Assembly (NCBI GenBank): GCA_017798125.1
Contig: CP059070.1
Coordinates: 1,240,001-1,304,000, forward strand
Source of the DNA: Cryomorphaceae bacterium
GTDB taxonomy: Bacteria > Bacteroidota > Bacteroidia > Flavobacteriales > ECT2AJA-044
Reading direction: 5' to 3'
Length of the DNA: 64,000 nt
Shown: one piece after another, positions 9,599-38,572 of the stretch
Position numbering within the stretch: position 1 is the stretch's first letter
Layout: each line of letters starts with the position of its first letter
Translations under genes and position numbers: made by a program
Notes under the pieces: model-generated
Databases searched by the model: none
Seen by the model: the letters and a program-made list of their open reading frames with translations, nothing else
Told to the model about the DNA's origin: nothing

Positions 9599-9892
9599 AT
9601 GACCAAGGCGGATATCGTGGCCAATATAGCGGACAAGACAGGATTAGAAAAGTTGGAAGTACAAGCCACTGTAGAAGCGTTCATGGATGAAGTAAAAGGT
9701 TCTTTGGAAGATGGCGAGAACGTTTACCTCCGTGGATTTGGAAGCTTTATCGTGAAAGAGCGCGCTGAGAAGACTGGCCGCAACATTTCAAAAAATACCA
9801 CCATCATCATTCCAGCACACAATATTCCTGCTTTCAAACCAAGCAAGACTTTTGTTGAAGGAGTGAAAAACAAAGTTCGCGTAGCGAAATGA
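9599..9892 (+). CDS. HU-family histone-like DNA-binding protein
   Basis: A 97-residue nucleoid protein of the HU/IHF family, which binds and bends DNA as a dimer. The family core is VYLRGFGSFIVKERAEKTGR and the DNA-binding arm ends with IIIPAHNIPAFKPSKTF. Length is normal. Its stop overlaps the ATG of the TPR gene (ATGA at 9889-9892), so the two are coupled. Confidence 0.95.
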   Translation: MTKADIVANIADKTGLEKLEVQATVEAFMDEVKGSLEDGENVYLRGFGSFIVKERAEKTGRNISKNTTIIIPAHNIPAFKPSKTFVEGVKNKVRVAK

Positions 9893-18388: not shown

Positions 18389-18405
18389 AGTGTATTTTGT
18401 ACAAT
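18389..18405. promoter_or_regulatory. Imperfect copy of the maltodextrin-locus palindrome
   Basis: AGTGTATTTTGTACAAT on the plus strand. The half nearest the minus-strand promoter reads AAATACACTT, identical to ten bases of the susC-promoter palindrome; the distal half is degenerate. Its distance to the -7 element is like that at susC. Confidence 0.4.
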
Positions 18406-20333: not shown

Positions 20334-21766
20334 ACTTCCGTACTTGCGTCCAAAGTTTCGGCCTCCCCGAAAAGGGGCTCTTTAATGCGCAGGGTCAGAA
20401 TCGCCGCTAATACAAAGAACAGTCCGCCGGTCACCAAGTAGGGCATGGCGTAGTCGTCAAAAAAGGCGTGGATGATTGGACCTCCAATCAAACCGTTGAT
20501 GATTTGAGGGATCACAATGAAGAAGTTGAAGATACCCATGTAGATACCCATCTTGTTGATGGGTAGCGAATCAATCAGCAGGGCATAGGGCATGGACAGA
20601 ATACTTGCCCAGGCAAATCCGATGCCGAGCATGCTCAAGATCAACCAGTCTGTTGGCAAGAAGTACAGCCCAAGTAAGCCCAGACCTCCGCTCAACAGCG
20701 CGATGAAGTGGACAAATTTACGGCTGGTCCTCTTGGCTAATGGGGTGAGCAAGAAGGCAAAGGGAAGGGCAAAGGCGTTGTACCAACCAAAGAGGTATCC
20801 CGTCAGATTACCCGCTTCATTGAAGTCAGCCGAATGGGTATCCGTAGGAGAAAGACCGTAGTGATGCGTTGCCAAAGCTGATGTGGTGTAGACCCACATG
20901 GTGAACAGTCCAAACCAAGAGAAGAACTGAACCCAGCCTAAACGCTGCATTCGTCGAGGCATTTTCATGGCGTCCGCAAAGATCTCCTTGAACATGTTTT
21001 GCTTTGGACCTTCTTCCTCCGCCGATTCACCCATGTATTTCTTGAAGTCTTCAGGGGAGTATTCCTTAATGGTGGCAATGGTGTAAATGATGGTGGCCAG
21101 TAGAAGAATAGCACCGATGTAAAAGGACCAAACGACGCTCATCGGAACGGAGCCTTCCTCGGCTACGTTGGATACACCGAAGAAATTGGTCAATACATAA
21201 GGCAGCCAAGAACCAATAATGGCGCCGATGGCAATCAATATGGTCTGTACACTGAAGCCAATGGTCCCCTGAGATTTTGGAAGCATGTCTCCGACAAGCG
21301 CTCGGAAGGGTTCCATACTGATGTTGAAACTTGCATCCATCAAGGCCAAGAAAAGAACGCCGATCCAAAGGACTGCGCTGATTCCGATAAACTCAGTTGC
21401 CGAGAGTGACTCGCCCGCCAGGAGGTTCGAATTCGGGAGGAAAATCAAACCTAGCGCAGCCATGATGGCCCCGATCAAGAAGTAGGGTTTACGTCGGCCG
21501 AGTTTGGTCCATGTATTGTCTCCCATGTGCCCAATGATGGGCTGCACAATAAGACCGGTAAAGGGAGCTACAAGCCAGAACCAGCTCAGTTGATGAACAT
21601 CGGCGCCAAAGTTCTGAAGGATTCGACTCGCGTTACCGTTCTGAAGGCCAAAGCCCATCTGAATTCCCATAAACCCCATGCTGAGGTTAATGATGGTCCC
21701 TAGACCTAGTCTTGGTTTTTCAGCGGCTGTTGCTTCGCCGTGGGCGTGGGGTACAGATTGTGCCAT
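20330..21766 (-). CDS. MFS sugar transporter, SLC45/maltose-permease type
   Basis: A 478-residue inner-membrane protein with about twelve membrane segments. The N-terminal block GFMGIQMGFGLQNGNASRIL and the loop GDNTWTKLGRRKPYFLIG resemble the GPH/SLC45 sugar permeases, including MalT-type maltose carriers found next to maltose phosphorylase genes in Bacteroidota. By context it moves maltose or short maltodextrins into the cytoplasm. Last gene of the nine-gene minus-strand unit, 30 bases after a GH13 gene. Confidence 0.82.
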   Translation of the reverse strand: MAQSVPHAHGEATAAEKPRLGLGTIINLSMGFMGIQMGFGLQNGNASRILQNFGADVHQLSWFWLVAPFTGLIVQPIIGHMGDNTWTKLGRRKPYFLIGAIMAALGLIFLPNSNLLAGESLSATEFIGISAVLWIGVLFLALMDASFNISMEPFRALVGDMLPKSQGTIGFSVQTILIAIGAIIGSWLPYVLTNFFGVSNVAEEGSVPMSVVWSFYIGAILLLATIIYTIATIKEYSPEDFKKYMGESAEEEGPKQNMFKEIFADAMKMPRRMQRLGWVQFFSWFGLFTMWVYTTSALATHHYGLSPTDTHSADFNEAGNLTGYLFGWYNAFALPFAFLLTPLAKRTSRKFVHFIALLSGGLGLLGLYFLPTDWLILSMLGIGFAWASILSMPYALLIDSLPINKMGIYMGIFNFFIVIPQIINGLIGGPIIHAFFDDYAMPYLVTGGLFFVLAAILTLRIKEPLFGEAETLDASTEV

Positions 21767-21796: not shown

Positions 21797-23224
21797 TTAT
21801 TTGCGGAACATCATGAACTGCTTGCCTAGGACTACGATATCTTCTGCTTTGTCTGCATCCCAGCACACTTCATCTTGCCCGTCGAATACCCAATAAACGC
21901 TGTCTAATTCCAATGATTCAACGCTTTTTTGAATGGCCTCATCACCGAAATTGAAAAGCATGGTAACTGAGCTTTCGCCTAATTGTCTTCTGTAGGCGTA
22001 AGTTCCTTCCTCGTCATTGACGATGAGCGGAGTGAAGTCACCTCCATAGGCTCCATTGTATAAGGCCGGCGTTTTGTGGTAGATATCCATCATGGTGGTG
22101 TAGAAGTCCTTGTAATTCCAGCCCGTTAGCGAATCCGTCTCCACCGTCCAATCGATTTCATCTTTGTCGAAGAAAACTAATCTGCGGTTCAAACCGACTT
22201 CCTGTCCGCTGTAGATCAAGGGCATGCCTCGATCAAAAGTCATACAGAAGGCGAACCATTGGAAATGTGCTTTTCCATAACGTTCGAAGACCGTTCCGTT
22301 CCACGAATTCTCATCGTGATTGGTCGTAAAGTACATGCGAATATCATCACGGGTGTAGTTGCTGTCGATGACGCTTCGAAGTGCTTCAATATCACTTGGC
22401 GATTTATGTCCTTGGGCCACTTCATTGGTCATGTGGTGCACGTCCCAACCGTAGTTCATGTTGAAGTTCTGCATGTCGGTTGGCTCTGCCCATTCTGCCA
22501 GCATGAACAACTCTTTCCCCCATGTCGCACGTTCTTCTGTCAAGAAATTCCAGTATTCAATGGGCACAAATCCAGCGACGTCACAACGGAAGCCGTCGAT
22601 GTCGGTTGAATCCACCCAGAAGCGCATTTCGCCAGCCATGGCGGACCAAAGATCTCGGTTGTCAAAGTTCAAGTCTGCAACATCGGTCCAGTCGGTCAAG
22701 AACCCTTCGTTGTCTTTGGCGACGTTGATATTGCCGTCTTCATCATAGGTGTAGAAGTCGGGATGATCGACGGTCCAGCCGTGGTCGAATGAGGTGTGGT
22801 TGGTCACCCAATCTAGGATGACCTTGAAGCCCAATTCGTGGGCTTGGGAGACCATCGCTTTAAAATCGTCCATCGTCCCGAAACTCGGATTAATGGCGGT
22901 GTAGTCTTGAATGGAGTAGTAGCTACCCAATGGACCTTTTCGGTTTTTTTCGCCGATGGGTTGAACGGGCATGATCCAAAGGATGTCAACGCCTAATTCT
23001 TGCAATCGCGGTAGGTGTTCAGCAAAGGCATTGATGGTCCCTTCAGGCGTGTATTGGCGAATGTTGACTTCGTAAATGGTAGCCGAAGCAACCCATTCCG
23101 GATGACGGCTCTCCATGGCTTCTGGAGCTTCGGATTGTGCTTCCATAGCTGACTCTTCTTGTTGAGGTCCGGCACAGCTCAAAGCAATTCCGGCCCAAAT
23201 AAATACCAATAATTTCTTCATCAT
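21797..23224 (-). CDS. GH13 alpha-amylase-family lipoprotein
   Basis: A 475-residue lipoprotein with lipobox ALSC (lipid Cys 17). The residues after Cys, AGPQQEES, are acidic like the lipoprotein export signal that sends Bacteroidota lipoproteins to the cell surface, so surface exposure is likely. GH13 catalytic residues: D215 in DGFRCDVAGF, E244 in MLAEWAEP, D304 in TTNHDENSW. The barrel starts at about residue 45 without an N-terminal accessory domain. Start codon is MM at 23224; its stop-to-start neighbours are tightly packed (0 bases to the gene before, 30 to the MFS gene). Confidence 0.88.
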   Translation of the reverse strand: MMKKLLVFIWAGIALSCAGPQQEESAMEAQSEAPEAMESRHPEWVASATIYEVNIRQYTPEGTINAFAEHLPRLQELGVDILWIMPVQPIGEKNRKGPLGSYYSIQDYTAINPSFGTMDDFKAMVSQAHELGFKVILDWVTNHTSFDHGWTVDHPDFYTYDEDGNINVAKDNEGFLTDWTDVADLNFDNRDLWSAMAGEMRFWVDSTDIDGFRCDVAGFVPIEYWNFLTEERATWGKELFMLAEWAEPTDMQNFNMNYGWDVHHMTNEVAQGHKSPSDIEALRSVIDSNYTRDDIRMYFTTNHDENSWNGTVFERYGKAHFQWFAFCMTFDRGMPLIYSGQEVGLNRRLVFFDKDEIDWTVETDSLTGWNYKDFYTTMMDIYHKTPALYNGAYGGDFTPLIVNDEEGTYAYRRQLGESSVTMLFNFGDEAIQKSVESLELDSVYWVFDGQDEVCWDADKAEDIVVLGKQFMMFRK

Positions 23225-25561
23225 TTATTCTTTGATATAGACAAAACTGTGTGCTTCTAATACGTTTCCATCATCACCTTCCACGAGGTGGCCTGCTAGA
23301 ATGCCCTCGGAAGAGGCATCGCATGGAACTGGCGCAGACCCTGGATTGATCCAAATCTGGATTTTATCCCCGAGATAGGTTCGCGTAATGTGAATGACGC
23401 TTTCACCGTCGATCTCGATCTCTGTTTCTCCGTAGAGCAGTGCCATCTCGCGAGTTCGAGCTGCTGCGAGGGCTTCTACATCGGCCCGTAGGGCTGCCTC
23501 ATCCGCATCATAACCTGTGAACTTCATCATTTTCCGGTTGTCGGGATCGTTGGCGCCCCACATGCCGTACTCATCACCGTAGTAAATGACCGGAATACCG
23601 GGAATGGCGAAGTTAAGCGCATGCAGCGTAGCCAGCTGGCGATAGGCCGTTGGTTGAGGCTTCGGAATGTCTCGTGTCCAACCCGCGAGCTTCTGATCTT
23701 CGTCCATTCGAACGTCACCAGAGGCGAGGGTAATAAATCGACTGCGGTCCTGATTCCCGGAAATGTAGCCCATCAGGTTGTGGTAACCGTAGGTGTTCCA
23801 GCTTTGCTTCAGGGTTGTCACCAAGTTCTCTACAGAACTGGCGTCCTCATTCACGAAGGCGCTCACCGCAGCGTCGTACACATTGAAGTCAAATTGAGCG
23901 TCGAGCATCCCGTTGCTCACATAGCTGTTGATCAGCTCGGGGGAGCCGTAGGTTTCACCGATCTGGTAAATGCGACGATCGAGTTTGGCTTCTTTAATCT
24001 TCCGTGTCAAGGTCCGCCAATACAATTCGTCAATATGCTTTGTGGCATCATGGCGGAACCCGTCAAAATCGTAATCGGCAACCCAAACCATAGCCGAGTC
24101 TGTCATGACATTGACGACTTCCGGGTTTCGGAGTTCTAAGGTGGGCATGAAGGTGTCAAACCACGTGGTCAGGCGCTGATCGTCCCATCGCTCGGTGTTG
24201 AGCGTGCCATCCGGCAAGTACAGCGGCGTAGCCCAATCCGGGTGATCGATAAAGATCGGGTGCAGCTGGTGGACGTGGTTGGCTACGTAATCGGTCAATA
24301 CATTGAAGCCTCGATCGTGAGAGGCATCGAGCAAGGAGCGAACTTCTTCCGGCGTTCCAAAGCGAACGTCTGGACGGACATTCGAGATGGGCCAATACCC
24401 GTGGTAGCCGCTAAACTTCGAGGTGACACCTCCTTTGTCCCAAAGACCCCAGGCATCCCAAGGGTTCTGAACGATGGGAGAGATCCAAACCGTGTTCATG
24501 TGCAATTCGTCGAAGAACCCGGATTCAACGACTTGCGTGATCCCCGGGATATCGCCCCCGTAGTAGTTGGCAATCGGTTTGATATCCGGGTCATCCACGG
24601 CGCTGTCGTTCTCGGTTTTGCCATTTTTGAAACGGTCCACCATCATGAAGTACATGCGTGCGGTCTGCCAGTCGGAACGGTCGAGCGCGTCAACGTCGGT
24701 AATAATATTTCCGGCGTCCAAGGGAATCAAGAGGTCGTTGGAGCGCTGAAAGTTCCGAACGCTGAAGACACGAAGGTGACTGCGCCCTTCGGCATAGCTC
24801 GAGCTCTCGTCAATTTCGGGAATATTGATTCGGTAATGGCCTGAGGATAGACTATCCAGTTCTAGTCGCTGGTTTTGCCAGTAGGCCAAAACGTGCTGAT
24901 CGTCCGCGAGTCCTTCGAGCTCAATGGTCCGCTGATCGGCCAGCTTGGGCTCGAGCATGGCAGGACCTTCGCCTGAATGCGGGACCACTAGGTTGGAATT
25001 GAACCCTCCCATGCCATTGGAGATGCTGTCCATGGACACGTCCACCACTTCGGTCGCAGTGCCGTTCTTCCAGACGTAGTATTTGAATTGATACGTGTCG
25101 GGGGCAAGTTCCAAAGTCGTGCGGAAAAGATTGCCTTGATCCGCCATCTTATCCGCTCCCCGGTTCCACGCATTGAAGGTTCCAAAAATGAAAACGGAAT
25201 CGGCAGCCCCTCGATACTCAAAATTGATGGGTTCAATAGGAGCAAAGAATACGGGGACATCATAGGAGTCACCATTCATGGCGTGCAATTCCACCCATCC
25301 GTATTGATCCTTCGATGACTCCGGGTACAATTGGAAGGCCTTGTCGCGCGCAACTTCCATGTGCTCGAACTCTAGGCGATCCAGACTTAGGGTATCGACG
25401 ATGTAGTCCCCAGGGTAGAAATCAGGGTTGTCTTTGGTCAACACTAAGGGACCGGCCAGACCTATCATCTCAGGGCCTTGATGGAGCTTAGTAGCTGGTC
25501 CACGACTACAGGCCGTTGCGAGTAATACTCCGGCCAATGCAATGGCAAAATTCTTCATCAT
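23225..25561 (-). CDS. GH13 alpha-amylase-family lipoprotein with N-terminal E-set domains
   Basis: A 778-residue lipoprotein (lipobox ATAC, Cys 18). After Cys it has SRGPATKL without acidic residues, so it more likely faces the periplasm. Residues about 110-195 form a CBM48/E-set-like domain (VFIFGTFNAWNRGADKM), with another sandwich to about 285. The GH13 barrel follows: D505 in DGFRHDATKH, E536 in YQIGETYGS, and D605 in GNQDRSRF, where the usual NHD is NQD (Q604). Probably an alpha-amylase, pullulanase or cyclomaltodextrinase-like enzyme on branched or cyclic maltodextrins. Abuts both neighbours. Confidence 0.87.
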   Translation of the reverse strand: MMKNFAIALAGVLLATACSRGPATKLHQGPEMIGLAGPLVLTKDNPDFYPGDYIVDTLSLDRLEFEHMEVARDKAFQLYPESSKDQYGWVELHAMNGDSYDVPVFFAPIEPINFEYRGAADSVFIFGTFNAWNRGADKMADQGNLFRTTLELAPDTYQFKYYVWKNGTATEVVDVSMDSISNGMGGFNSNLVVPHSGEGPAMLEPKLADQRTIELEGLADDQHVLAYWQNQRLELDSLSSGHYRINIPEIDESSSYAEGRSHLRVFSVRNFQRSNDLLIPLDAGNIITDVDALDRSDWQTARMYFMMVDRFKNGKTENDSAVDDPDIKPIANYYGGDIPGITQVVESGFFDELHMNTVWISPIVQNPWDAWGLWDKGGVTSKFSGYHGYWPISNVRPDVRFGTPEEVRSLLDASHDRGFNVLTDYVANHVHQLHPIFIDHPDWATPLYLPDGTLNTERWDDQRLTTWFDTFMPTLELRNPEVVNVMTDSAMVWVADYDFDGFRHDATKHIDELYWRTLTRKIKEAKLDRRIYQIGETYGSPELINSYVSNGMLDAQFDFNVYDAAVSAFVNEDASSVENLVTTLKQSWNTYGYHNLMGYISGNQDRSRFITLASGDVRMDEDQKLAGWTRDIPKPQPTAYRQLATLHALNFAIPGIPVIYYGDEYGMWGANDPDNRKMMKFTGYDADEAALRADVEALAAARTREMALLYGETEIEIDGESVIHITRTYLGDKIQIWINPGSAPVPCDASSEGILAGHLVEGDDGNVLEAHSFVYIKE

Positions 25562-25562
25562 C

Positions 25563-27881
25563 TTAAGCTTTTGACGCCCCCGTCACAGCCGCTGCTCCGG
25601 GTTGAAGCGAGTGGTGTTCTCCGAGGAGGTTAAATTCAGCTGGTACAGAACCTTCATTCGTGATCTCCATTTCTTCCGGAGTAATGTTCACCGCCAAGTG
25701 GGTCCCTCTCCAGGTAATCCGGAAGTTCAAGCCCTTCCATTCAGAAGGCAAATAGGGGTCAAAGTGCAGGGCTCCGCCGTGCACGCTCATGCCACCAAAA
25801 CCTTGAACCACACTGATCCACGTTCCTGCCATACTGGTGATGTGCAGCCCCTCATGGACTTCGCGATTGTAATCGTCGAGGTCTAGGCGCGAGGTTCGGT
25901 GATACATCTCCAAGGCCTTTTCCTCATAGTCGAGTTGTGCCGCGAGCACCACGTGAATACAAGGTGATAGACTGGATTCGTGAACCGTCATCGGCTCGTA
26001 GAAATCGAAGTTCCGACGCAGGGTCTCCCGGTCGAATTCATGACCGAAGAAGTACAGTCCCTGCAACACATCCGCCTGCTTGATGAAGCAGGAGCGGAGA
26101 ATGCGGTCCCAGCTCCAATGCTGGTTGATGGGGCGTTCGCTGTCCGCTAGTGAATCCGCTCTGCGGAGTTCTTTGTCCAAGAATCCTTCTTGCTGCAAGT
26201 AAACGCCACGATCGGCATCTTCCGGATAGTACATCTTCTCGATGATCTCGTTCCAGCGCGTGCGCTCGTCCTCCGACCAGTTCAGATCGGCTGCGATTGC
26301 GCTCCATCGGTCGGCATCATTCTCCCGAACGTGATCCATCGCTTCGCCTGCATAGCGCAAACACCAGGTGGCGATGTAGTTCGTATAGAAGTTGTTGTTG
26401 ATGTTGTTCTCGTACTCGTTCGGCCCGGTGACCCCATGCATGACGAACTGCTGCTTGTGTTCGCTCCAGTGCACGCGTTGACTCCAGAATCGGGCAATAC
26501 CAATCAGCACATCCAGACCAAATTCGCCCAAGTAGGCGTAGTCCTGGGTGTGTTGAACGTAGTTGTAAATCGCATAGGCGATGGCCCCATTCCGGTGAAT
26601 TTCTTCAAAGGTGATTTCCCACTCATTGTGGCATTCTTCACCGTTCATGGTTACCATTGGGTATAAGGCCGCTCCATTAGTAAAACCGAGTTTCGCAGCA
26701 TTTTCAATGGCCTTTTGCAGGTGCTTGTGACGATACACCAAAAGGTTTCGGGCCACGTGCGGTTCGGCTGTCGCCAAGTAGAAAGGAAGGCAATAAGCCT
26801 CCGTATCCCAGTAGGTCGATCCCCCGTATTTTTCTCCAGTAAAGCCCTTCGGGCCGATGTTCAAGCGCTCATCCTCCCCCGTATACGTCTGATGCATATG
26901 GAAGATATTAAAGCGAATGCCCTGTTGTGCTTCGGCATCGCCCTCAATGACAATGTCCCCATTGTTCCATCGGGCCGCCCAGGCCTCCTTTTGCTCCTGC
27001 AATAACTGCGTAAATCCAGCTTCACGACCCTCTTGTGCACGCTCGCTGGCCTTAGTGACCAAGTCTTCTTTCGCGTGATTCATGGAGCTCAGAATCCCCA
27101 CATACTTTTGGAGCGTGATGCTCTGGCCCTCACGGGCCGATACCTTCATCCGGTTCCCTACAAACATATTGCGCTCCTCGCTGGTCTCTTCGGCCGGTTC
27201 GGCCACTCCATCGCGCAACACTTCATAACGCATAGCTGCACATACGTGGAAATCCAACTTCTTGGTTTTGGCCGTTACATGGGCTGCCGCTTTTTGGGTG
27301 GCTTGGTTAACGCCATCCCAGAACTTCTCTTCCCAGTTGGTGTCTTCGTTTTCTACGTCGAAGTCCAAGTAGGGGAGGAGGGTAATCTCACCATCGAAAT
27401 TCAAAGGGGTAATGCTGTAGCTCAAAGCACCAATTTCGTCGCGCTTCATGCTGTACAATCGCTGAGCCTGAACGCCAATCCGCTCACCACCTGGGAAGGT
27501 GACTTCAAAGGAGCGCAGCAGGTAGCCCTCTTGCATGTTCAATTCACGGTAGAAAGAATCGACTTCGACCTTTGCTAAATCGAGCATTTGGCCGTTGACT
27601 TCAACATCCAAGCCAATCCAGTTCACGCTGTTGAGGACCTTCGCGAAGTATTCGGGATAACCATTTTTCCACCAGCCCACTTTCGTTTTATCTGGATAGT
27701 AGACTCCGGCGATGTAGGAACCGCGCAAACTCTTTCCGCTATACTGCTCCTCGAAATTGGCCCGCTGACCCATGCGGCCGTTTCCGATCGAAAAGATGCT
27801 CTCTGATTTTGGATGATTTTCGGGGTCCCAGTGACGCTCGATGATGCGCCATTCATCGACCTCTAGGTATTTCGCTTGCAT
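25563..27881 (-). CDS. GH65 maltose phosphorylase-type enzyme
   Basis: A 772-residue cytoplasmic inverting phosphorylase of family GH65: disaccharide plus phosphate gives beta-glucose 1-phosphate plus glucose. The conserved block CHNEWEITFEEIHRNG sits at about residues 417-432, holding the expected general acid glutamate; phosphate-binding and barrel residues such as GGSTYWDTEAYCLPFYL are also present. Maltose is the likely substrate because of the amylases and permease downstream and beta-phosphoglucomutase upstream; kojibiose or trehalose activity cannot be excluded by sequence. No signal peptide. Confidence 0.9.
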   Translation of the reverse strand: MQAKYLEVDEWRIIERHWDPENHPKSESIFSIGNGRMGQRANFEEQYSGKSLRGSYIAGVYYPDKTKVGWWKNGYPEYFAKVLNSVNWIGLDVEVNGQMLDLAKVEVDSFYRELNMQEGYLLRSFEVTFPGGERIGVQAQRLYSMKRDEIGALSYSITPLNFDGEITLLPYLDFDVENEDTNWEEKFWDGVNQATQKAAAHVTAKTKKLDFHVCAAMRYEVLRDGVAEPAEETSEERNMFVGNRMKVSAREGQSITLQKYVGILSSMNHAKEDLVTKASERAQEGREAGFTQLLQEQKEAWAARWNNGDIVIEGDAEAQQGIRFNIFHMHQTYTGEDERLNIGPKGFTGEKYGGSTYWDTEAYCLPFYLATAEPHVARNLLVYRHKHLQKAIENAAKLGFTNGAALYPMVTMNGEECHNEWEITFEEIHRNGAIAYAIYNYVQHTQDYAYLGEFGLDVLIGIARFWSQRVHWSEHKQQFVMHGVTGPNEYENNINNNFYTNYIATWCLRYAGEAMDHVRENDADRWSAIAADLNWSEDERTRWNEIIEKMYYPEDADRGVYLQQEGFLDKELRRADSLADSERPINQHWSWDRILRSCFIKQADVLQGLYFFGHEFDRETLRRNFDFYEPMTVHESSLSPCIHVVLAAQLDYEEKALEMYHRTSRLDLDDYNREVHEGLHITSMAGTWISVVQGFGGMSVHGGALHFDPYLPSEWKGLNFRITWRGTHLAVNITPEEMEITNEGSVPAEFNLLGEHHSLQPGAAAVTGASKA

Positions 27882-27903: not shown

Positions 27904-28548
27904 TTAACTTAGGTATGTTGCCGTATTGAATTCATGGAGTCCTTCGACGTAGACCTCTGCGCCGGGAAGAATTTCCGGAGTTCCAATGGCCACCGTACGC
28001 ATTCCCCCTGCGATGGCCGCTTCAATACCCGCTTTGGAATCCTCAAAGACGACACATTCTTCTGGCGCTACGCCAAGCGCCGCAGCACCTTTCAGAAATA
28101 CTTCAGGGTGCGGTTTGGAGTGTGTAACCTTGGTTCCGTCAATAACGGCTTCAAAAAAATCTTCTAGTTCGCATTGCCTCAATATCATAGGTGCATTCTT
28201 CGATGCAGATCCCAGGGCAATTTTAATTCCGTGTGCCTGAGCTTGTTCGAGACATTCTTTGGCTCCAGCAAGAGTTTCATTAGGGTTCATGTGAGCGATC
28301 AGTTCAAGGTACCAATCGTTTTTCACCTTCATCCAGTGCTCGATTTCTTCTTCGCTCAATTGAATATTCCCCCATTCCATGATCTTCTCAATACTTCCGC
28401 GACGGCTCACTCCTTTGAGCTGTTCATTTTCCTCTTCGGTAAAATCCACCCCCAACTCGTTGGCGAGTCTTTTCCACGCGATGAAATGATACTTCGCCGT
28501 ATCGACAATGACCCCGTCTAAATCAAAAAGGAAGGCTTTAATAGGCAT
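27904..28548 (-). CDS. pgmB: Beta-phosphoglucomutase
   Basis: A 214-residue HAD-family enzyme that turns beta-glucose 1-phosphate into glucose 6-phosphate. The motif FLFDLDGVIVDT gives nucleophile D9 and acid/base D11; SASKN supplies motif II and VFEDSKAGIEAA motif IV. The cap-domain hinge region KGVSRRGSIEKIM is typical of beta-PGM rather than other HAD phosphatases. It directly follows the GH65 gene's substrate logic and is 22 bases upstream of it in the unit. Confidence 0.93.
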   Translation of the reverse strand: MPIKAFLFDLDGVIVDTAKYHFIAWKRLANELGVDFTEEENEQLKGVSRRGSIEKIMEWGNIQLSEEEIEHWMKVKNDWYLELIAHMNPNETLAGAKECLEQAQAHGIKIALGSASKNAPMILRQCELEDFFEAVIDGTKVTHSKPHPEVFLKGAAALGVAPEECVVFEDSKAGIEAAIAGGMRTVAIGTPEILPGAEVYVEGLHEFNTATYLS

Positions 28549-28555
28549 GGGATGA

Positions 28556-28957
28556 TCAGTGTTTCATCCGTTCGGCCATTTCTTTGCGAATATGACCCAG
28601 GATCATCAATTCAGCCGTAGCCGTATTGGTGGCTAAGGGAACATTTTGACGAATACATATTTCAATTAAGGCTTCGATATCCGGATGGTGACGCTCTTTC
28701 ACGTCCGGATCCACGAAGAACAAGACGAGTGTTACCTCACCTTTCGAGATCATGTCATTGATCTCCGAATATCCGCCGCTTTGACCAGGGCTCAGGTGTA
28801 CAATGGGAACTTTGAATTCGTTCTTTTCCAGGAACTCTGCTGAACGTCCGGTAGCGACCAAACGTTTTCCCCACAACCACTCTTCACGTTCTTTAATGAA
28901 CTCGGCCATAGTCGGCTTCATGGCATTGTGGGCCAAGATGACGATATTCTTAATCAT
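28556..28957 (-). CDS. Methylglyoxal synthase-like protein with altered active site
   Basis: A 133-residue single-domain protein of the MGS fold. Conserved pieces are ILAHNAMK, the phosphate loop VATGRSAEFL, GQSGG, FFVDPD and PLATNTATAE. Compared from memory with E. coli MgsA, H19 is kept (H10), H98 is kept (H90) and D101 is kept (D93), but the catalytic base D71 is replaced by Y63 (GGYSE instead of GGDQQ) and D20 by N11. It may therefore not make methylglyoxal and could be a triose-phosphate or phosphate sensor. It overlaps the kinase gene before it by 4 bases. Confidence 0.75.
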   Translation of the reverse strand: MIKNIVILAHNAMKPTMAEFIKEREEWLWGKRLVATGRSAEFLEKNEFKVPIVHLSPGQSGGYSEINDMISKGEVTLVLFFVDPDVKERHHPDIEALIEICIRQNVPLATNTATAELMILGHIRKEMAERMKH

Positions 28958-29817
28958 GCTTCGAGTTGAATTTTGTGCTTCAAATGATAGGCTACCAAAC
29001 CGTCCACGGGCTTCTTGATTACTCTACCGTATTTGATGTCTAAATCCTTACACGCCCGACGAAGGAGGGATTCCATGTGATAGGCAACGGACCCCACAAA
29101 GTTGACCGTCGTGTTCTTGGATTCAGGGAAACAGAGGACATGCATGCGCAAGAAGAGCAAAAAGCCCTCATAGATGATTTTTTCGAAAAAGGGATCCTCC
29201 TTGTGCTTACTGACAAATCGAGCAAAACCGGCCAAGTATACGTTGGCGTTGGGTTGATTATATACGTTGTCAATGATTTCGTCCTTATCTGTATGATAAG
29301 TGGCCAAGAAGTCCTCTTCAATACTCTTGGGTAGCTGTTTGTAGAGAAAGGCACTCAACAATTTTTTCCCCAGATAGGAACCACTCGCTTCATCACCTAA
29401 GATAAAGGCCAATGCCGGAACCTCTTCCCGTAAAGAGTGCCCGTCAAAATAGCAGGAGTTCGAACCCGTACCAATGATACAGGCGATTTCTGGTTCCCCA
29501 TTATAGGTGGAATAGGCAGCGGCAACCAAGTCGTGATCGACTTCGATCTCTGCGTGTACAAAGACCTGTTCTAGGCCTCGTTTAATTTCTTGTTTGAGCG
29601 GTTCGGTAGAGCATCCGGCTCCGTAAAAGAATATCATCTCGACATCCTTTCGGAGCTTTTGCACGCGCTGTAAATTGCGCAAATGCTCAGCGACGAATCG
29701 GGCGCTGTGGAAATACGGGTTGAAGCCCATCGTAGAGAATCGATCGGCTTCACTTCCATCTCGGTTCAACAACACCCAATCGCATTTGGTAGAACCACTT
29801 TCTGCGATCAGGATCAT
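28954..29817 (-). CDS. BadF/NagK-type sugar kinase, candidate glucokinase
   Basis: A 287-residue ASKHA-fold kinase. The phosphate-1 motif is AESGSTKCDWVLL and the phosphate-2 region IIGTGSNSCYF with ILGDEASGSYLGK, typical of the BadF/BadG group annotated as N-acetylglucosamine kinase. In this unit the only unphosphorylated sugar produced is glucose from the GH65 reaction and amylolysis, so glucose is the more likely substrate; that is inference from context. Gap of 5 bases to gapA, 4-bp overlap with the MGS-like gene. Confidence 0.82.
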   Translation of the reverse strand: MILIAESGSTKCDWVLLNRDGSEADRFSTMGFNPYFHSARFVAEHLRNLQRVQKLRKDVEMIFFYGAGCSTEPLKQEIKRGLEQVFVHAEIEVDHDLVAAAYSTYNGEPEIACIIGTGSNSCYFDGHSLREEVPALAFILGDEASGSYLGKKLLSAFLYKQLPKSIEEDFLATYHTDKDEIIDNVYNQPNANVYLAGFARFVSKHKEDPFFEKIIYEGFLLFLRMHVLCFPESKNTTVNFVGSVAYHMESLLRRACKDLDIKYGRVIKKPVDGLVAYHLKHKIQLEA

Positions 29818-29822
29818 ACTAC

Positions 29823-31804
<1,982 letters not shown>

Positions 31805-31825: not shown

Positions 31826-31833
31826 CAAACATA
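31826..31833 (-). promoter_or_regulatory. Promoter -7 element of the pfkA operon
   Basis: Read on the minus strand TATGTTTG matches TAnnTTTG; it ends 21 bases before the pfkA ATG. No clear -33 TTG: the place is taken by the palindrome. Confidence 0.6.
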
Positions 31834-31849
31834 GTGTAAAATTTACACT
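31833..31849. promoter_or_regulatory. Palindromic operator in the pfkA promoter
   Basis: AGTGTAAAATTTACACT: perfect 8-base arms with one central base, overlapping the -7 element by one base and filling the spacer of the promoter. A protein bound here would block RNA polymerase, so repression is the simple reading. The same design recurs at 32660-32676. Confidence 0.65.
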
Positions 31850-31944
31850 TATTTTGGCCCTTTACTTGAATTTGTATACTTTTTCGGTCTCGAATGGAAG
31901 CATTTGAGACTTAAAACCTTCTACTACACTTAATTATCGGGGGA

Positions 31945-32652
31945 ATGGGTCAAGGAGTTAATCCGAACGTATCTGTGGATTGCGTAGTGTTCGGATTTGA
32001 CAATACGCAACTAAACGTATTGTTGATTAAGCAAAAAGAGCTCAAGGAGGGCATGCATTCACAATATGCATTGCCCGGAGATTTGGTGCTACAAGATGAA
32101 AGTCTAAATGACGCGGCGAATCGCGTATTAAAGGAATTAACCTTATTAGAGGGGATTTTTCTGAGGCAGTTTCACGCTTTCGGAGATCCCAATCGTGTAA
32201 GTAATATCAAGGATTTAGACTGGCTGCAGTCCTATCGTCAGAATCCTCAAGCACGGGTCATTACTGTGGGGTACTTAGCCCTCGTTCGCATGGAGGACTT
32301 CAGCCCTGCCGCATCTTCCTTTGCGGAGGAAGTATTCTGGAAAGAAGTCCATGAAGTTCCTTCACTGGCCTTCGATCACGATGCTATTTTTGACGCTGCA
32401 TTGGCGCGGTTAAAGGAGGATTTTACCCACCAAAAAATTGGCTTGGAGCTTTTGCCAGAGAAGTTTACGCTATCCCAATTCCAAGCATTGCACGAAATAA
32501 TTCTGGAGAAGAAACTCGACAAGCGAAACTTCAGAAAAAAGGTTCTTAAAGAGAAGTGGGTTGTTCCTCTTGAAGAGAAACAACAAGGCGTTCTACACAA
32601 GCCAGCGCAGCTCTTTGCACTCAATCAGGAAGAACTGGTCGAGGAAGGATAA
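31945..32652 (+). CDS. Nudix-fold transcriptional regulator (NrtR/AraR type)
   Basis: A 235-residue protein with an N-terminal Nudix fold (about residues 8-150) and a C-terminal winged helix (about 160-225, LSQFQALHEIILEKKLDKRNFRKK). In the Nudix box, which should read Gx5Ex7REUxEExGU, the aligned sequence G-x5-D-x7-N-R-V-L-K-E loses the key Arg-Glu and one metal Glu, so it is not a hydrolase but a ligand sensor, as in NrtR and the Bacteroides arabinose regulator AraR. It lies between the pfkA unit and susCD, with matching palindromes on both sides. A TACACT half-site at 31925-31930, near its start, may allow autoregulation. Ligand unknown; a sugar phosphate is plausible. Confidence 0.85.
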   Translation: MGQGVNPNVSVDCVVFGFDNTQLNVLLIKQKELKEGMHSQYALPGDLVLQDESLNDAANRVLKELTLLEGIFLRQFHAFGDPNRVSNIKDLDWLQSYRQNPQARVITVGYLALVRMEDFSPAASSFAEEVFWKEVHEVPSLAFDHDAIFDAALARLKEDFTHQKIGLELLPEKFTLSQFQALHEIILEKKLDKRNFRKKVLKEKWVVPLEEKQQGVLHKPAQLFALNQEELVEEG

Positions 32653-32659
32653 ACGTCTA

Positions 32660-32676
32660 AGTGTATTAAATACACT
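32660..32676. promoter_or_regulatory. Palindromic operator in the susC promoter
   Basis: AGTGTATTAAATACACT: perfect 8-base arms with one central base, eight bases after the regulator stop codon and 14 bases before the -7 element. It covers the -33 region. Outer bases AGTGTA/TACACT are the same as in the pfkA site. Confidence 0.65.
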
Positions 32677-32690
32677 TTACGTCTTTTTTG

Positions 32691-32698
32691 TACATTTG
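32691..32698 (+). promoter_or_regulatory. Promoter -7 element of the susCD operon
   Basis: TACATTTG matches TAnnTTTG and ends 29 bases before the susC start codon. The -33 region is occupied by the palindrome at 32660-32676. Confidence 0.65.
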
Positions 32699-32727: not shown

Positions 32728-35700
32728 ATGAGGAAGTTCTACACGGGCGTCTTGACGCTCTTTCTCGGGCTCTGTCTCGGATTTACCGTCAACGGACAGA
32801 GCATTTCAGGAACCGTAATCGATGAAACCAATTTGCCACTACCGCAGGTCTCGGTTTTGGTTAAGGGTACATCGAACGGTACTGCGACAGATTTTGACGG
32901 TCGGTACACCATTTCCGGGCTTGAACCCGGTGAGGTGACCCTCGAATTCTCGTTTATTGGATATGCCACTGCAACGAGAACAGTAACAGTAAAAGCAGGT
33001 GAGAATACCGTGGTCGATTTGACCATGGACCCTGAAGCCACGGATCTCGATGAGGTTGTAGTGGTTGGGTACGGTGTTCAGCGAAAACGAGAGCTTACTA
33101 GCTCGGTAGTCAAACTTGGTTCGCAAGAACTGAACGACATGCCAACACCTTCTTTTGAAACTGCAATCCAAGGAAAAGCTCCTGGGGTCCAAGTCATCAC
33201 CGGTTCCGGTTTGGCAGGGTCAGGATCACTTGTGCGAATTCGCGGAGTTGCTTCAATCTCTGCAGGTGGTGACCCACTTTATGTAGTCGATGGAATCCCC
33301 ATCACCCAGGATTACTTTATCAAAGGGAATTCGGGAGCGATGAACAACAATCCACTCGCTACGCTGAATCCCAACGATATTGAGTCTGTTGAGATCCTCA
33401 AGGACGCGGCAGCGACTGGTATCTATGGATCTCGTGGTTCGAACGGGGTTATTCTGATTACAACCAAGCGTGGTAAAAAGAGCGGTTTGCACTTTAGCTA
33501 CAGTGCGCGCTTAGGAACTTCGAATCCAACGGCCTTGCCTGAGATGTTAAATAAGGAAGAGTACCTTCAAATGTATGAAGAGGCTTGGGTCAATGATGGA
33601 AACATCGGAACACCTGTACTTCCTGGCGGTGTAAGCTGGGAGGAAGCTCAGGCGTTTGAAGGAACCGATTGGGTGGACCAAACCGTTGCCACAGGCTTCA
33701 AGCAGAATCATGACTTCTCAGTCTCCAAGGGAGCAGAGAAATACAATTTTTACGCGGGACTCTCATACAATGATAATGAGAGCTTCCTCGTCGGTAACCG
33801 TTTCCGCAGATTGAGCTTGCGTTTGAATGGTGACGTGAACCTGACCGATGACCTACTCTTGAGCATTTCTACCAGCTTTGCCCAAGGAGTTAATGACCGG
33901 GTGGATGCCGCTTGGTCTGGAGGTCTTGGTGCAGCAATGTCCACTGCTTTGCCTATCTATCCCATCTACGATGCTGAGGGTGATTATTTCATCGGAGGAA
34001 CCAATCCGGTTCGCGTTCAGGATTTGAAGCAGTGGAGAAATACAGAGAACCGAACCATTAACAACGCAGCTCTGACGTACCGTGCTTCTGAAAAGTTGAC
34101 GTTCCGAGGTTCCGCCTCTTTGGACTACATGAAGATCAACGAAGATATCTATGAGCCTCAGGAATTGATCAACAGCGACCATGCTGGGGTTTCAAAGAGA
34201 ATCCCAACAGAGGTCATTAACTACAATGGGTCATTAACTGCTCAATACAACCTGAGTCAAAATACCTTGCACAACTGGGACTTCTTAGTTGGAACAGAGG
34301 CACAGCGCTCTTATAGCCGCTCCTCTTATGCGGAGGTGATTGACGCCACCGACCCCTTCTGGGAGGATAAGGCGATGCGCGATTCAGTAGACTTCATTTT
34401 CAACGATCCAGCGAACGAATTCACGTTTGTGAGTTTCTTTGGTCGCGTGAACTACAACTTGGCAGGCAAGTACTTTGCTCAAGTAAACTTCCGTGCTGAT
34501 GGTTCGTCTAAGTTCGGCCCGAATAATCGTTTCGGTTATTTCCCAGCGATCTCTTTTGGTTGGATTATCACCGAGGAAGAGTGGTTGAGAGACAACAATA
34601 CCTTGAGCTTTTTGAAGCTAAAAACAGGATATGGATTGACAGGAAACGCAGCGATTCCACCAAATCAATGGCGGGCGAATAATGTGAAAAATGTCAATGG
34701 ATACAACGGATCTCCGTACTACTATCCAACCATTATCGAAAATCCTAACCTGCGCTGGGAAAGCTCGTACACTTTTGACGCGGCGATTGAGTTTGGATTG
34801 TTTGATGACCGAATCCATGGAGAGCTCGGTTATTACTACAAGGATACGCGCGATGTATTCCTGCAGGTGCAAGTTCCGCAAGCCAGTGGTTTTGCCAACT
34901 TGTGGGATAATGTTGGAGGTATCTACAACACCGGGGTTGAATTCAATGTGACCACGAGAAATACGGTTGGTGACTTCAAATGGACTACGGACTTCAATAT
35001 TGCACGTAACTATAACGAGATTACCAGTATTGGAGGGTATAGCGAAGATGCGGTAAGTGGAGGTACGAATGATACGCGTACCGTTGTGGGACAGCCGGTT
35101 GGAACCAACTTCCTCGTTCGCTTCTCACACGTAGATAAGGAAACGGGAGCGCCGGTTTACCTTGACATCAATGGGAACGAAACCTATACATGGGATCCAG
35201 TCAACCGCGTGACAGTAGGAAACGTACTCCCTGATGCCGTCGGTGGGATTACCAATAGCTTCTCTTACAAGAACTGGGATTTGAGTGTCCTCTTCGTATT
35301 CACCATCGGAGGGAATATCTACGACTCTTCCAGTAAGCGTCAATTGTCCATGGTATCGGATTGGAACATGACGCGTCACGTATATGATCGTTGGACGCAA
35401 CCCGGAGATGATGCGCGTTACCCACGCCTTACACTAGACCCTGCGAACCACGGTTCTACGACACCTTGGATCAACACCGACTTATGGTTGCACGACGCCA
35501 GCTACATGCGCTTGCGAAATGTGACGTTAGGATATTCCATCCCTACGGATAAAGTACGCCGCTGGGGGCTTCAGAGCATTCGTTTGAGTGCTTTGGCCAC
35601 CAATATCTTGACCTTCACCAAATTCCCTGGTGTTGATCCGGAGATTGCCCGTGACTTTGAGAATCCAACGGACCGTAACATGAGCCCGAACATTACGTAC

Positions 35701-35754
35701 TTGACACCTCCTCAGGAGAAGACGTTCATTTTCGGACTTGAAGTTCAATTTTAA
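32728..35754 (+). CDS. SusC/RagA-type TonB-linked outer-membrane transporter
   Basis: A 1008-residue outer-membrane porin. Signal peptide 1-23 (ends TVNGQ), a carboxypeptidase-regulatory-like domain about 24-110 (ISGTVIDETNLPLPQVSVLV), the SusC TonB-box region DEVVVVGYGVQRKRELTSSV, a plug to about 230 (GSRGSNGVILITTKRG), then a beta-barrel ending FIFGLEVQF. With SusD and the amylases it should take up maltodextrins using TonB energy. First gene of a four-gene plus-strand unit ended by the terminator at 38600. Confidence 0.93.
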   Translation: MRKFYTGVLTLFLGLCLGFTVNGQSISGTVIDETNLPLPQVSVLVKGTSNGTATDFDGRYTISGLEPGEVTLEFSFIGYATATRTVTVKAGENTVVDLTMDPEATDLDEVVVVGYGVQRKRELTSSVVKLGSQELNDMPTPSFETAIQGKAPGVQVITGSGLAGSGSLVRIRGVASISAGGDPLYVVDGIPITQDYFIKGNSGAMNNNPLATLNPNDIESVEILKDAAATGIYGSRGSNGVILITTKRGKKSGLHFSYSARLGTSNPTALPEMLNKEEYLQMYEEAWVNDGNIGTPVLPGGVSWEEAQAFEGTDWVDQTVATGFKQNHDFSVSKGAEKYNFYAGLSYNDNESFLVGNRFRRLSLRLNGDVNLTDDLLLSISTSFAQGVNDRVDAAWSGGLGAAMSTALPIYPIYDAEGDYFIGGTNPVRVQDLKQWRNTENRTINNAALTYRASEKLTFRGSASLDYMKINEDIYEPQELINSDHAGVSKRIPTEVINYNGSLTAQYNLSQNTLHNWDFLVGTEAQRSYSRSSYAEVIDATDPFWEDKAMRDSVDFIFNDPANEFTFVSFFGRVNYNLAGKYFAQVNFRADGSSKFGPNNRFGYFPAISFGWIITEEEWLRDNNTLSFLKLKTGYGLTGNAAIPPNQWRANNVKNVNGYNGSPYYYPTIIENPNLRWESSYTFDAAIEFGLFDDRIHGELGYYYKDTRDVFLQVQVPQASGFANLWDNVGGIYNTGVEFNVTTRNTVGDFKWTTDFNIARNYNEITSIGGYSEDAVSGGTNDTRTVVGQPVGTNFLVRFSHVDKETGAPVYLDINGNETYTWDPVNRVTVGNVLPDAVGGITNSFSYKNWDLSVLFVFTIGGNIYDSSSKRQLSMVSDWNMTRHVYDRWTQPGDDARYPRLTLDPANHGSTTPWINTDLWLHDASYMRLRNVTLGYSIPTDKVRRWGLQSIRLSALATNILTFTKFPGVDPEIARDFENPTDRNMSPNITYLTPPQEKTFIFGLEVQF

Positions 35755-35765
35755 TACCTAAGATC

Positions 35766-37163
35766 ATGAAAAGAATAGCACTTGTATTCAGTTCTCTTGC
35801 GTTGATCTTGGTATCAGCGTCATGTGAAAAGTTTTTGGACGTGAAGCCCGATGGTTCACTCACAACTGAGGAGGCCATCGTCAATACGGATTCACTTCAG
35901 ATGTTCCTCAATGGAGCATATAGTTCGATTGGCGACTTTGCCAATGGAAACTTCCAAACCTTTAATGAATTGCTGAGCGATAATCTCGCGCGGCCGATCA
36001 GCAACCTCGATTACCGCGAGATCTACAGTTTCAATACACTTTTCTTCAATGGGACTATTGGAGGGACGTACGGGAACATGTATCGTGCAGCCATGCGGGC
36101 AAACTTCGTCATCGAGAATTTCGACTTGGCCACGGATTTGACGGAAGCGGATCGCACCAGAATGGAAGCTGAAGCTCGCTTTATCCGTGCCCTAGCTCAT
36201 TTCGAGATCGTTCGATTGTTTGCTCAGCCATGGGGATATACACCGGACAATAGTCACGCGGGAATCATGATTCGCACTACCGTCGATTTTGAGATTGGGG
36301 CGCGAAACTCTGTTCGCGAAGTGTATGAAAACCTCATTATCCCGGATTTGATTTTCGCCAAAGAGAATCTTCCACAAAGCAACGGAAACTACGCTACCAG
36401 CTATGCTGCTCAAGCGGTACTGGCTAAGGTGTACTTTCAGCAAAACCGCCTTGGTGATGCGGCGGCAGAAGCTGCTCCAGTCATTCAAGCATTTCCATTC
36501 GACACCAGCGCCGCTGGGTTGGATCGATTCGTTTTTGGAGATACCAGTTCCGTTCAAAGTGAATTTATTTTCCGTGTTGTGAGTACCTCGATCAACAATA
36601 CCGTGGATAACCGCGGAGGTGCGTTCACAGGAAACTACAGAAGTGATAATAACCCAAATCCGGAATTGAGAACGGATCGTACGTTCTTGAATCCTTATTC
36701 TGCCAACGCGGATGATAGAAGGGTGCTGCAGTTCTTCCAAATTCGGAATGATGGTGCGCCCAATGAGTTCGTGGCGGTGAGTAAGTTCGATCGCGACTTT
36801 GTCAGTGTTCCTCTGATTCATACGACCAGTATGAAACTTATGTATGCCGAGTGTATTGCGGGAACAGATCCAGCCGCTGCTGCAGGGCATGTCAATGACA
36901 TACGTCGACGTGCATATGGGACCAATGCTTATGATATTCCATCCAGTTCATCACCTTCAGAAATTCGTGAGGCGATTGAATTTGAACGTCGTATTGAGCT
37001 TTTTGCTGAAGGAGAGCGCATTCAGTGGATTAAGCGTCGTGGTGCCTTAGGCGAACAGCGCGAAGTGCGCAATGCTCCATGGGATTGTGACGGAATGATT
37101 TTGCAGTTCCCTATTTCAGAGCAAACGGATCAATTTGAGTTGAACCCAACCGGAGGTTGCTAA
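35766..37163 (+). CDS. SusD/RagB-type glycan-binding lipoprotein
   Basis: A 465-residue outer-membrane lipoprotein (lipobox SASC, Cys 20) that caps the SusC pore and binds oligosaccharide. The mature start EKFLDVKPDGSLT is typical of SusD proteins, and the helical TPR-like core includes AEARFIRALAHFEIVRLFAQPWG. Eleven bases after susC. By context the ligand is starch or maltodextrin. Confidence 0.92.
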   Translation: MKRIALVFSSLALILVSASCEKFLDVKPDGSLTTEEAIVNTDSLQMFLNGAYSSIGDFANGNFQTFNELLSDNLARPISNLDYREIYSFNTLFFNGTIGGTYGNMYRAAMRANFVIENFDLATDLTEADRTRMEAEARFIRALAHFEIVRLFAQPWGYTPDNSHAGIMIRTTVDFEIGARNSVREVYENLIIPDLIFAKENLPQSNGNYATSYAAQAVLAKVYFQQNRLGDAAAEAAPVIQAFPFDTSAAGLDRFVFGDTSSVQSEFIFRVVSTSINNTVDNRGGAFTGNYRSDNNPNPELRTDRTFLNPYSANADDRRVLQFFQIRNDGAPNEFVAVSKFDRDFVSVPLIHTTSMKLMYAECIAGTDPAAAAGHVNDIRRRAYGTNAYDIPSSSSPSEIREAIEFERRIELFAEGERIQWIKRRGALGEQREVRNAPWDCDGMILQFPISEQTDQFELNPTGGC

Positions 37164-37174
37164 AATATATAGAG

Positions 37175-37651
37175 ATGAAAAGACAATTTTCCATAGCCGC
37201 CCTAGTTGCCCTTTTTATAGGGGTAGCATCGTGCCGGCCAGATATTCCATCAGACATTGGACCTAGCTATGACGCTACTTCCGGATTCTCCGGAAAATGG
37301 CGCCTAAGCCAAGTGGATATGGTGGATAAGCAAGAAGCCTTGCAAGAAACTCGTGATATTACTCCGTTCTATGCTTCGGACTTTGGAGCAGTTACCTTGA
37401 GCGGAGGAGAGGGAACCTATACAGTTGAAGAAGGAGCCGGTGATTTCTTTATAGGGACTCAAGGGACCTACTCATTTGATGATCCGAGTTTCCCGAGCAA
37501 CATCATTTTCTACACGGACGCCGGTGATACTGTTACAGCGTCATTGTCTAGAATGGTACGCGAGATCGATAACGACATGGGCTTTAATGTCCCTCGCGAA
37601 AAATGTGATGCGCCAAGTGTTCAGTATAACTTTTCATTCACACGAGAATAA
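37175..37651 (+). CDS. Small outer-membrane lipoprotein of the susCD unit
   Basis: Starting at the ATG 37175 (a TTG 18 bases upstream lies inside susD), 158 residues. Lipobox VASC follows a basic-hydrophobic signal (MKRQFSIAALVALFIGVASC). The mature domain looks like a lipocalin/DUF5004-type beta-barrel, with SGKWRLSQVDMVD and TQGTYSFDDPSFPSNIIFYT. It takes the place that SusE or SusF holds in the Bacteroides sus operon, but does not look like them by eye. Function unknown, possibly glycan-binding. Confidence 0.7.
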   Translation: MKRQFSIAALVALFIGVASCRPDIPSDIGPSYDATSGFSGKWRLSQVDMVDKQEALQETRDITPFYASDFGAVTLSGGEGTYTVEEGAGDFFIGTQGTYSFDDPSFPSNIIFYTDAGDTVTASLSRMVREIDNDMGFNVPREKCDAPSVQYNFSFTRE

Positions 37652-37660
37652 GATAGAGCT

Positions 37661-38572
37661 ATGAAGAAGTTAGTATTTACAGCAGTAGTATTGTTCTCGG
37701 GATTGATGGCTTTTGGTCAAGTAACAAGTGACCCACCCGAGTTCACACCAGACCAAGAAATCAAGATCATTGTGAACTTGAACGAGACCTCGAATGACTG
37801 GGGGATTATTGAAATCGCCGCGGGAGGCGAGGATATGTATATCTGGACTTGGAAACCCTATGAATGGGGAGCCAATGATTCTTTGGCCAATGGGCTTGGC
37901 TCTCAGGCGTGGAAGAATTCAAATCCAGCGCTGAAGATGACCAAGGAAGCCGAGGGCATTTACAGCTACACCATGACTCCGACGGAGTTTTATGCCGTGG
38001 ACGCTTCGACCGTATATGACGAAGACATCCATTTCCTAGTGAAGCCCCTCGATGGTGGAGGATATGGAGATCCAGATCGTAAGACAGAAGATTTGATGTT
38101 GGCGGTAGATCCGGCCATTACGGTGAAGAATCCTGGTTTTGCCTTTCCTTTGAATCCGGCGAGTGATGACGTAATCCAAATCATTTACGAGTACGCTCGT
38201 GAGGATACAAGCGATAGCCGTATGACGCGTCGCGATCCATCCAATTGTTCCTCTTCTCCATTGGGGTCTGATGAGGTTTGGATGTTCGCAGAGGCCACAA
38301 CAACGGACAGCGCTAAGTATGAGATTAGTTCGTTTTTCACCACCACTCAAAATCCAGATCTCTTGATGGATTATGAAGGTGATGGGGTGTATAAGCGATA
38401 TCTCATTCCAGATGAATTCTTTGCAGATGTGGTTCCCGCTGAGAAAGAAATCATGTCGGTACGATTCGTACCCATGACGGATTACTTTATTGTCAATCCG
38501 GCTGGAGCGGGATGTTCCATCTCAGAAAACCGGACAGCAACTGATATCGTCATCCAGTTGGCTTGCCCCTAA
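37661..38572 (+). CDS. Exported protein of the susCD unit, unknown function
   Basis: A 303-residue protein with a Sec signal peptide (about 1-19, ends MAFGQ) and no lipobox. The mature part looks all-beta with two similar halves, each with a DWGI/EVWM-type start and a segment such as MTPTEFYAVD or LIPDEFFADV, hinting at two tandem carbohydrate-binding-like domains. I do not recognise the family. It begins 9 bases after the lipoprotein gene and is followed by a terminator, so it is the last gene of the unit and may bind glycan. Confidence 0.65.
   Translation: MKKLVFTAVVLFSGLMAFGQVTSDPPEFTPDQEIKIIVNLNETSNDWGIIEIAAGGEDMYIWTWKPYEWGANDSLANGLGSQAWKNSNPALKMTKEAEGIYSYTMTPTEFYAVDASTVYDEDIHFLVKPLDGGGYGDPDRKTEDLMLAVDPAITVKNPGFAFPLNPASDDVIQIIYEYAREDTSDSRMTRRDPSNCSSSPLGSDEVWMFAEATTTDSAKYEISSFFTTTQNPDLLMDYEGDGVYKRYLIPDEFFADVVPAEKEIMSVRFVPMTDYFIVNPAGAGCSISENRTATDIVIQLACP

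Follow-up and report, generated by a model that had tools for sequence, protein, structure and literature searches.

To our knowledge, little is known of how free-living Bacteroidota control their central carbon flow. In enterobacteria, Cra/FruR represses glycolytic genes from sites overlapping their promoters, and activates gluconeogenic genes, e.g., pckA, from sites located upstream. Sugar-responsive regulators of the NrtR family have been described for the arabinose (PMC4666351) and xylose (PMC3878776) pathways. The closest of the described systems is BtAraR (BT0354; PMC4666351; PDB 5bs6 and 5deq), the arabinose regulator of Bacteroides, which is composed of a Nudix-like domain and a winged helix. 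In the crystal structure of AraR with its operator, residues Lys179, Arg180, Asn181 and Lys184 touch the GTGT half-sites, and the published operator DNA includes AGTGTATTTGATACACC (PMC4666351). XylR (BT0791; PMC3878776), compared here by its description, is likewise an NrtR-family sugar regulator in Bacteroidota, with a xylose regulon, and the NrtR protein from Shewanella (PDB 3gz5 and 3gz6) is an ADP-ribose-responsive regulator that targets NAD metabolism (PMC4666351). While the scaffold and the operator type of the regulator presented here are known from AraR, its regulon and its likely Cra-like role appear to be new to the open-access literature, in which we found no report of an NrtR-family regulator acting on pfkA-gapA, pckA or starch uptake.

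The DNA analyzed here (the window) is a 64-kb stretch of a 2.84-Mb genome, from an organism whose order includes the Flavobacteriales relatives that were found. Two operator-like palindromes and the regulator gene that they flank, encoding a protein hereafter named P0001, sit within an alpha-glucan locus (Table 1), in which the regulator gene is followed on the plus strand by susC, susD and two more genes. For this regulator and its relatives, the computed results cover family and fold, the recognition residues, the sites with their conservation and spacing, and the content of the regulon.

Table 1. Coordinates of the features of the window, counted from its first nucleotide, and the basis of each assignment.
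Feature	Coordinates	Strand	Basis
SusF-like protein, starch/glycogen-binding-type domains	16660..18357	-	Pfam X25_BaPul_like, AMPK1_CBM, CBM_48
Candidate weaker operator AGTGTATTTTGTACAAT	18389..18405	.	One mismatch; between the SusF-like gene (-) and the cyclomaltodextrinase-type GH13 gene (+)
Cyclomaltodextrinase-type GH13	18489..20333	+	Pfam Alpha-amylase, Cyc-maltodext_N, Cyc-maltodext_C
MFS sugar transporter, end of the minus-strand run	20330..21766	-	Family match
GH13 alpha-amylase family	21797..23224	-	Family match
GH13 alpha-amylase family	23225..25561	-	Family match
GH65, maltose-phosphorylase-type	25563..27881	-	Family matches; substrate inferred from context
HAD hydrolase, probable beta-phosphoglucomutase	27904..28548	-	HAD family; specific function inferred from GH65 context
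Methylglyoxal synthase-like	28556..28957	-	Profile matches
BadF/BcrA-family sugar-kinase-like ATPase	28954..29817	-	Family match; weak NagK match
gapA, type I GAPDH, overlaps pfkA	29823..30818	-	Profile matches
pfkA, ATP-dependent 6-phosphofructokinase	30815..31804	-	Pfam PFK, TIGR02482
pfkA -7 promoter element TATGTTTG	31826..31833	-	Sequence; abutting geometry in most f8 loci and Marivirga sericea
Predicted operator of pfkA operon, AGTGTAAAATTTACACT	31833..31849	.	Pattern and conservation upstream of pfkA
NrtR/AraR-family regulator P0001, 235 aa	31945..32652	+	Pfam, PDB sequence and fold matches
Predicted operator of susC operon, AGTGTATTAAATACACT	32660..32676	.	Pattern and conservation upstream of susC
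susC -7 promoter element TACATTTG	32691..32698	+	Sequence; 14 nt after operator; 14-17 nt in most relatives
SusC/RagA TonB-dependent receptor	32728..35754	+	Family matches
SusD-family lipoprotein	35766..37163	+	Family match
DUF5004 protein and 303-aa protein without Pfam match	37157..38572	+	Two genes, kept after susCD

A preliminary description of this DNA had assigned a Nudix fold to the regulator, and both profile and structural matches agree with that assignment. P0001 consists of an N-terminal Nudix-like effector domain and a C-terminal NrtR winged helix, with Pfam matches to NrtR_WHD (8.9e-23), NUDIX (1.9e-6) and AraR_C (2e-5), all above the cut-offs. Its nearest solved structure is BtAraR, by sequence (2.5e-34) as well as by fold (E 6.9e-20), and the AlphaFold model (pLDDT 84.9) has AraR, followed by NrtR, as its best fold matches in the PDB. 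By reading, the Nudix motif is degenerate, as it is in BtAraR, with GDLVLQDE-SLNDAAN-RVLKELTLL standing against GX5EX7REUXEEXGU and the second half being without two glutamates and the glycine. With these domains, this degenerate motif and palindromes near its gene, P0001 is a member of the NrtR/AraR family. The likeness to BtAraR extends to the recognition helix, DKRNFRK, which is identical in the two proteins, to the GTGT half-sites and their spacing, and to the predicted control of susCD-type genes. Since recognition helix and half-site both match those of BtAraR, protein and DNA together predict that P0001 binds AGTGTA-N5-TACACT, and the two palindromes are very probably its operators.

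The effector pocket, in contrast, differs from that of BtAraR. Of the residues that contact arabinose, Arg34 is changed to Gln and the hydrophobic Phe36 and Phe49 to Glu and Leu, while at Arg86 and His131 P0001 also has Arg and His; in addition, Gly48 is changed to Asp. Moreover, in the clade of P0001 about 15 residues are inserted after FGDPNR. Because of these differences, the effector is probably other than arabinose. A tree of 140 proteins places P0001 in a clade of 62 sequences, mainly from Flavobacteriales (support 100/98), with BtAraR outside on a long branch. The changed residues Arg34, Phe36 and Phe49, together with this position in the tree, led us to reject P0001 as an orthologue of the arabinose regulator AraR; its predicted targets belong to starch and central metabolism, and no arabinose genes were seen near its gene. 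With the NrtR protein from Shewanella, P0001 has the fold and the order of domains in common, but a function as NAD-metabolism NrtR was also rejected, as P0001 reached 105 bits with the NCBIfam NtrR equivalog, whose cut-off is 400, and no NAD biosynthesis genes were found among the sites examined in this genome and its relatives.

Both palindromes have perfect outer arms, AGTGTA and TACACT, just as first described. A pattern search for AGTGTA-N5-TACACT without mismatch returned exactly two matches in the whole genome, one on the pfkA side and one on the susC side of the same regulator gene, rather than the random scatter which the preliminary description had named as grounds for refutation. 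From base composition, approximately 0.18 perfect sites would be expected by chance in the genome, and 1e-5 in the two intergenic gaps. One-mismatch matches number eight genome-wide, which is the chance level, similar to that of a control pattern (the reversed motif, an imperfect control as it resembles a CRP-type motif), and one-mismatch sites of this genome alone were not counted as evidence. Several of them lie upstream of alpha-glucan genes. The third, weaker site of the preliminary description (18389-18405), which has one arm mismatch, is among the eight: by eye, a -7-like element, TAATTTTA, does stand 12 nt downstream of it, towards the SusF-like gene, but the match itself belongs to the class found at chance level, and for this reason it is its position, together with the sites at SusF-like genes in relatives, that argues for this candidate.

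In this phylum, the consensus -7 element is TAnnTTTG (PMC7366714). Our search for -7 elements covered TAnnTTTG only, so promoters with a variant -7 were given no spacing. The first T of the pfkA -7 element (minus strand, 31833-31826) is also part of the pfkA-side palindrome, in a one-base overlap, and the susC-side palindrome occupies the place expected for a -33 box; the different promoter positions originally claimed for the two sites were thereby recovered.

To evaluate conservation, related loci were gathered with an alignment query, a site with at most one mismatch was taken as conserved, and the background was obtained from a Markov model. A site was found upstream of pfkA in 29 of 30 orthologous loci (background expectation approximately 0.03) and upstream of susC in all 15 (approximately 0.02), and the lack of conservation that would have spoken against operators was not borne out. 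Together with its site, pfkA adjoins the regulator gene in several orders of Bacteroidota. In Marivirga sericea (Cytophagales), the pfkA site is kept with the identical one-base overlap of operator and -7, and Pedobacter and Sphingobacterium have a closely similar site adjoining a TATATTCG- or TATCTTTG-type element. The spacing from site to TAnnTTTG is target-specific, namely -1 at pfkA, 5-6 at BadF/GH13 and 14-17 at susC (most loci), with 7-9 or 14 at pfkA in some lineages and two deviating susC loci as exceptions. Where pfkA lies apart from the regulator gene (genomes G050 and G021), only two-mismatch sites were found, with the -1 offset kept.

Perfect sites elsewhere in the relatives are mostly intergenic (49 of 60), although 90% of the DNA is coding, and together with the pfkA and susC counts they sustain the proposal that the palindromes define a regulon. 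These sites adjoin genes for GH13 enzymes, SusF-like proteins, SusC, MFS transporters and glycogen phosphorylase, and also for phosphoglycerate kinase, a pyruvate kinase, PEP carboxykinase (pckA) and a long GAPDH (NCBIfam NF006139), named gapB in this analysis and presumably gluconeogenic. Perfect sites at genes without an obvious link, e.g., uvrC and an Lrp-type regulator, may be due to chance. In systematic checks allowing one mismatch, a site was present at gapB in 12 of 30 genomes and at pckA in 10 of 27, with an expectation of 0 for both. Counts for pyk (3 of 30 genomes, two of the sites sharing a conserved position within one genus) and fbp (1 of 28) were near background; these genes were rejected as regulon members and, being essentially empty, were used as controls. 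Genera mostly use one of the two gluconeogenic targets: pckA in g24 and in the genus of the window (there with two mismatches), gapB in g27, g45 and g81, and both in g39 and g71 (one of two genomes). The sites lie 53-56 nt upstream of the -7 at pckA and 76-79 nt upstream at gapB, with lineage variants of 63, 65 and 87, and the one fbp site is 44 nt upstream. The spacings fit a period of 10.5-11 (Rayleigh p 0.003-0.015, seven gene-by-spacing classes), as would be expected if the protein has to face the polymerase; with a test chosen after the spacings had been seen, and data that are not independent, helical phasing is suggestive.

By analogy with AraR, an effector-free dimer of P0001 would bind these operators. 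At pfkA it would cover the -7 and the spacer and block the pfkA-gapA-maltose-phosphorylase operon, at susC it would sit on the -33 region and block starch uptake, and at some SusF-like genes of relatives, four loci of which have the -7 just upstream of the site, it would bind just downstream of the -7; all three positions are suited to repression. Release would then come from a sugar, or a sugar phosphate, derived from starch. We hold with good confidence that P0001 works in this way, repressing starch uptake and the pfkA-gapA-maltose operon until a sugar or sugar phosphate releases it. When sugar is absent, P0001 placed 53-87 nt upstream of the -7 probably also activates pckA and/or the long GAPDH gene in many relatives, while pckA binding in the genome studied here is weakly indicated.

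Since the same sites recur at sugar-breakdown and sugar-building genes, P0001 is maybe a central sugar-on/sugar-off switch. More tentatively, and with doubt slightly outweighing belief, we suggest that in a large part of Bacteroidota it may be a Nudix-fold master switch of the Cra type: responding to a sugar phosphate, it would set gluconeogenesis against glycolysis and starch uptake, with repression from sites that overlap promoters, and with activation of gapB and pckA from upstream sites in helical phase. In relatives the layout is Cra-like, with sites overlapping glycolytic promoters and others upstream of gluconeogenic ones; in the genome of the window, the gluconeogenic half of it consists of the two-mismatch pckA site only, with no site at gapB. 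P0001 would thus treat glycolytic and gluconeogenic genes as Cra does, its activating side being predicted, but Cra belongs to the LacI family, with an unrelated protein and operator, and P0001 would cover starch uptake as well. If true, one protein ties polysaccharide uptake to glycolysis, through a ready set of operators with defined spacings that could be tested in cultured Marivirga sericea and Pedobacter.

Besides the P0001 orthologue, between one and three additional NrtR paralogues are encoded in most relatives (some genomes are drafts, from which paralogues may be missing), and some of the sites may be shared with, or owned by, these proteins. It is possible, though on balance unlikely, that P0001 acts purely locally, repressing only starch uptake and the pfkA-maltose operon, and that the gapB and pckA sites of relatives belong to another NrtR paralogue. 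One genome (G217) that has the P0001 orthologue alone fits this explanation, as its pfkA and susC sites are kept and gapB and pckA sites are absent; so does the third paralogue type of the window's genome (DKRNFQK), which shares most of the recognition helix with P0001 and has a site of this kind upstream of its own gene, its homologue in a relative having a perfect one. However, G073, in which the P0001 orthologue is the only NrtR winged-helix protein found, has sites at pfkA, susC, gapB and pckA alike, so one protein can serve all four targets. Moreover, gapB sites occur in three genomes without the third type (G081, G222 and G242), and the second type (DKANFRK or DKGNFRK) is without the intercalating arginine.

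The preliminary description had also proposed that one protein could act differently on the two arms, in which case P0001 would activate susC. The susC site does lie 14-17 nt upstream of the -7 and over the -33 region, and a clear -33 box was not seen there; the missing box says little, because in Flavobacterium johnsoniae a -33 motif likewise could not be identified (PMC7366714). On the other hand, this position equally suits repression, and within the same pathway the sites of SusF-like genes stand at the transcription start, which makes activation of susC improbable. Both the pfkA and the susC positions are compatible with plain repression, and the contrast between them is by itself no proof of opposite action, for which the far-upstream gapB and pckA sites make the better argued case. 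Finally, it is very improbable that the palindromes serve an unrelated regulator or act as transcript hairpins or terminators: palindromes near promoters are common, but here the half-site is that of the BtAraR operator and the two proteins have the same recognition helix, pfkA and its site accompany the regulator gene across orders, and the distances from sites to promoter elements are fixed.

The proposed dual control by P0001 aside, several minor observations were made. In six Pedobacter loci (L342, L347, L351, L354, L367 and L368), the pfkA site is joined by a perfect AGTGTAAAAAATACACT near 2450-2620, on the far side of gapA, and at approximately 7780 a site with one mismatch separates a BadF-type kinase gene from a threonine-aldolase-like gene; these sites hint at additional members of the regulon. 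In several small Flavobacteriales genomes (L078-L080 and L083-L084; families f12 and f15) a relative of P0001 is kept and no pfkA homologue was found; in one of them (L078), a perfect site stands ahead of a BadF-type kinase gene. Regarding the paralogues of the window's genome, the second-type gene (L087, 9121-9858; genome 535120-535857; helix DKANFRK) stands first in a run that also contains an SSF symporter, a sugar transporter, GH16 and GH30, and probably encodes a beta-glucan regulator. The third (L088, 9025-9708) has the one-mismatch site AGTGTCTAAAATACACT at 9720 (genome 1347219), just upstream of its own start, and a related gene in L154 has a perfect site in the corresponding position, which suggests autoregulation. 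Lastly, the glycolysis-maltose operon includes the methylglyoxal synthase gene, flanked by the kinase and HAD phosphatase genes; the sister species has it as well.
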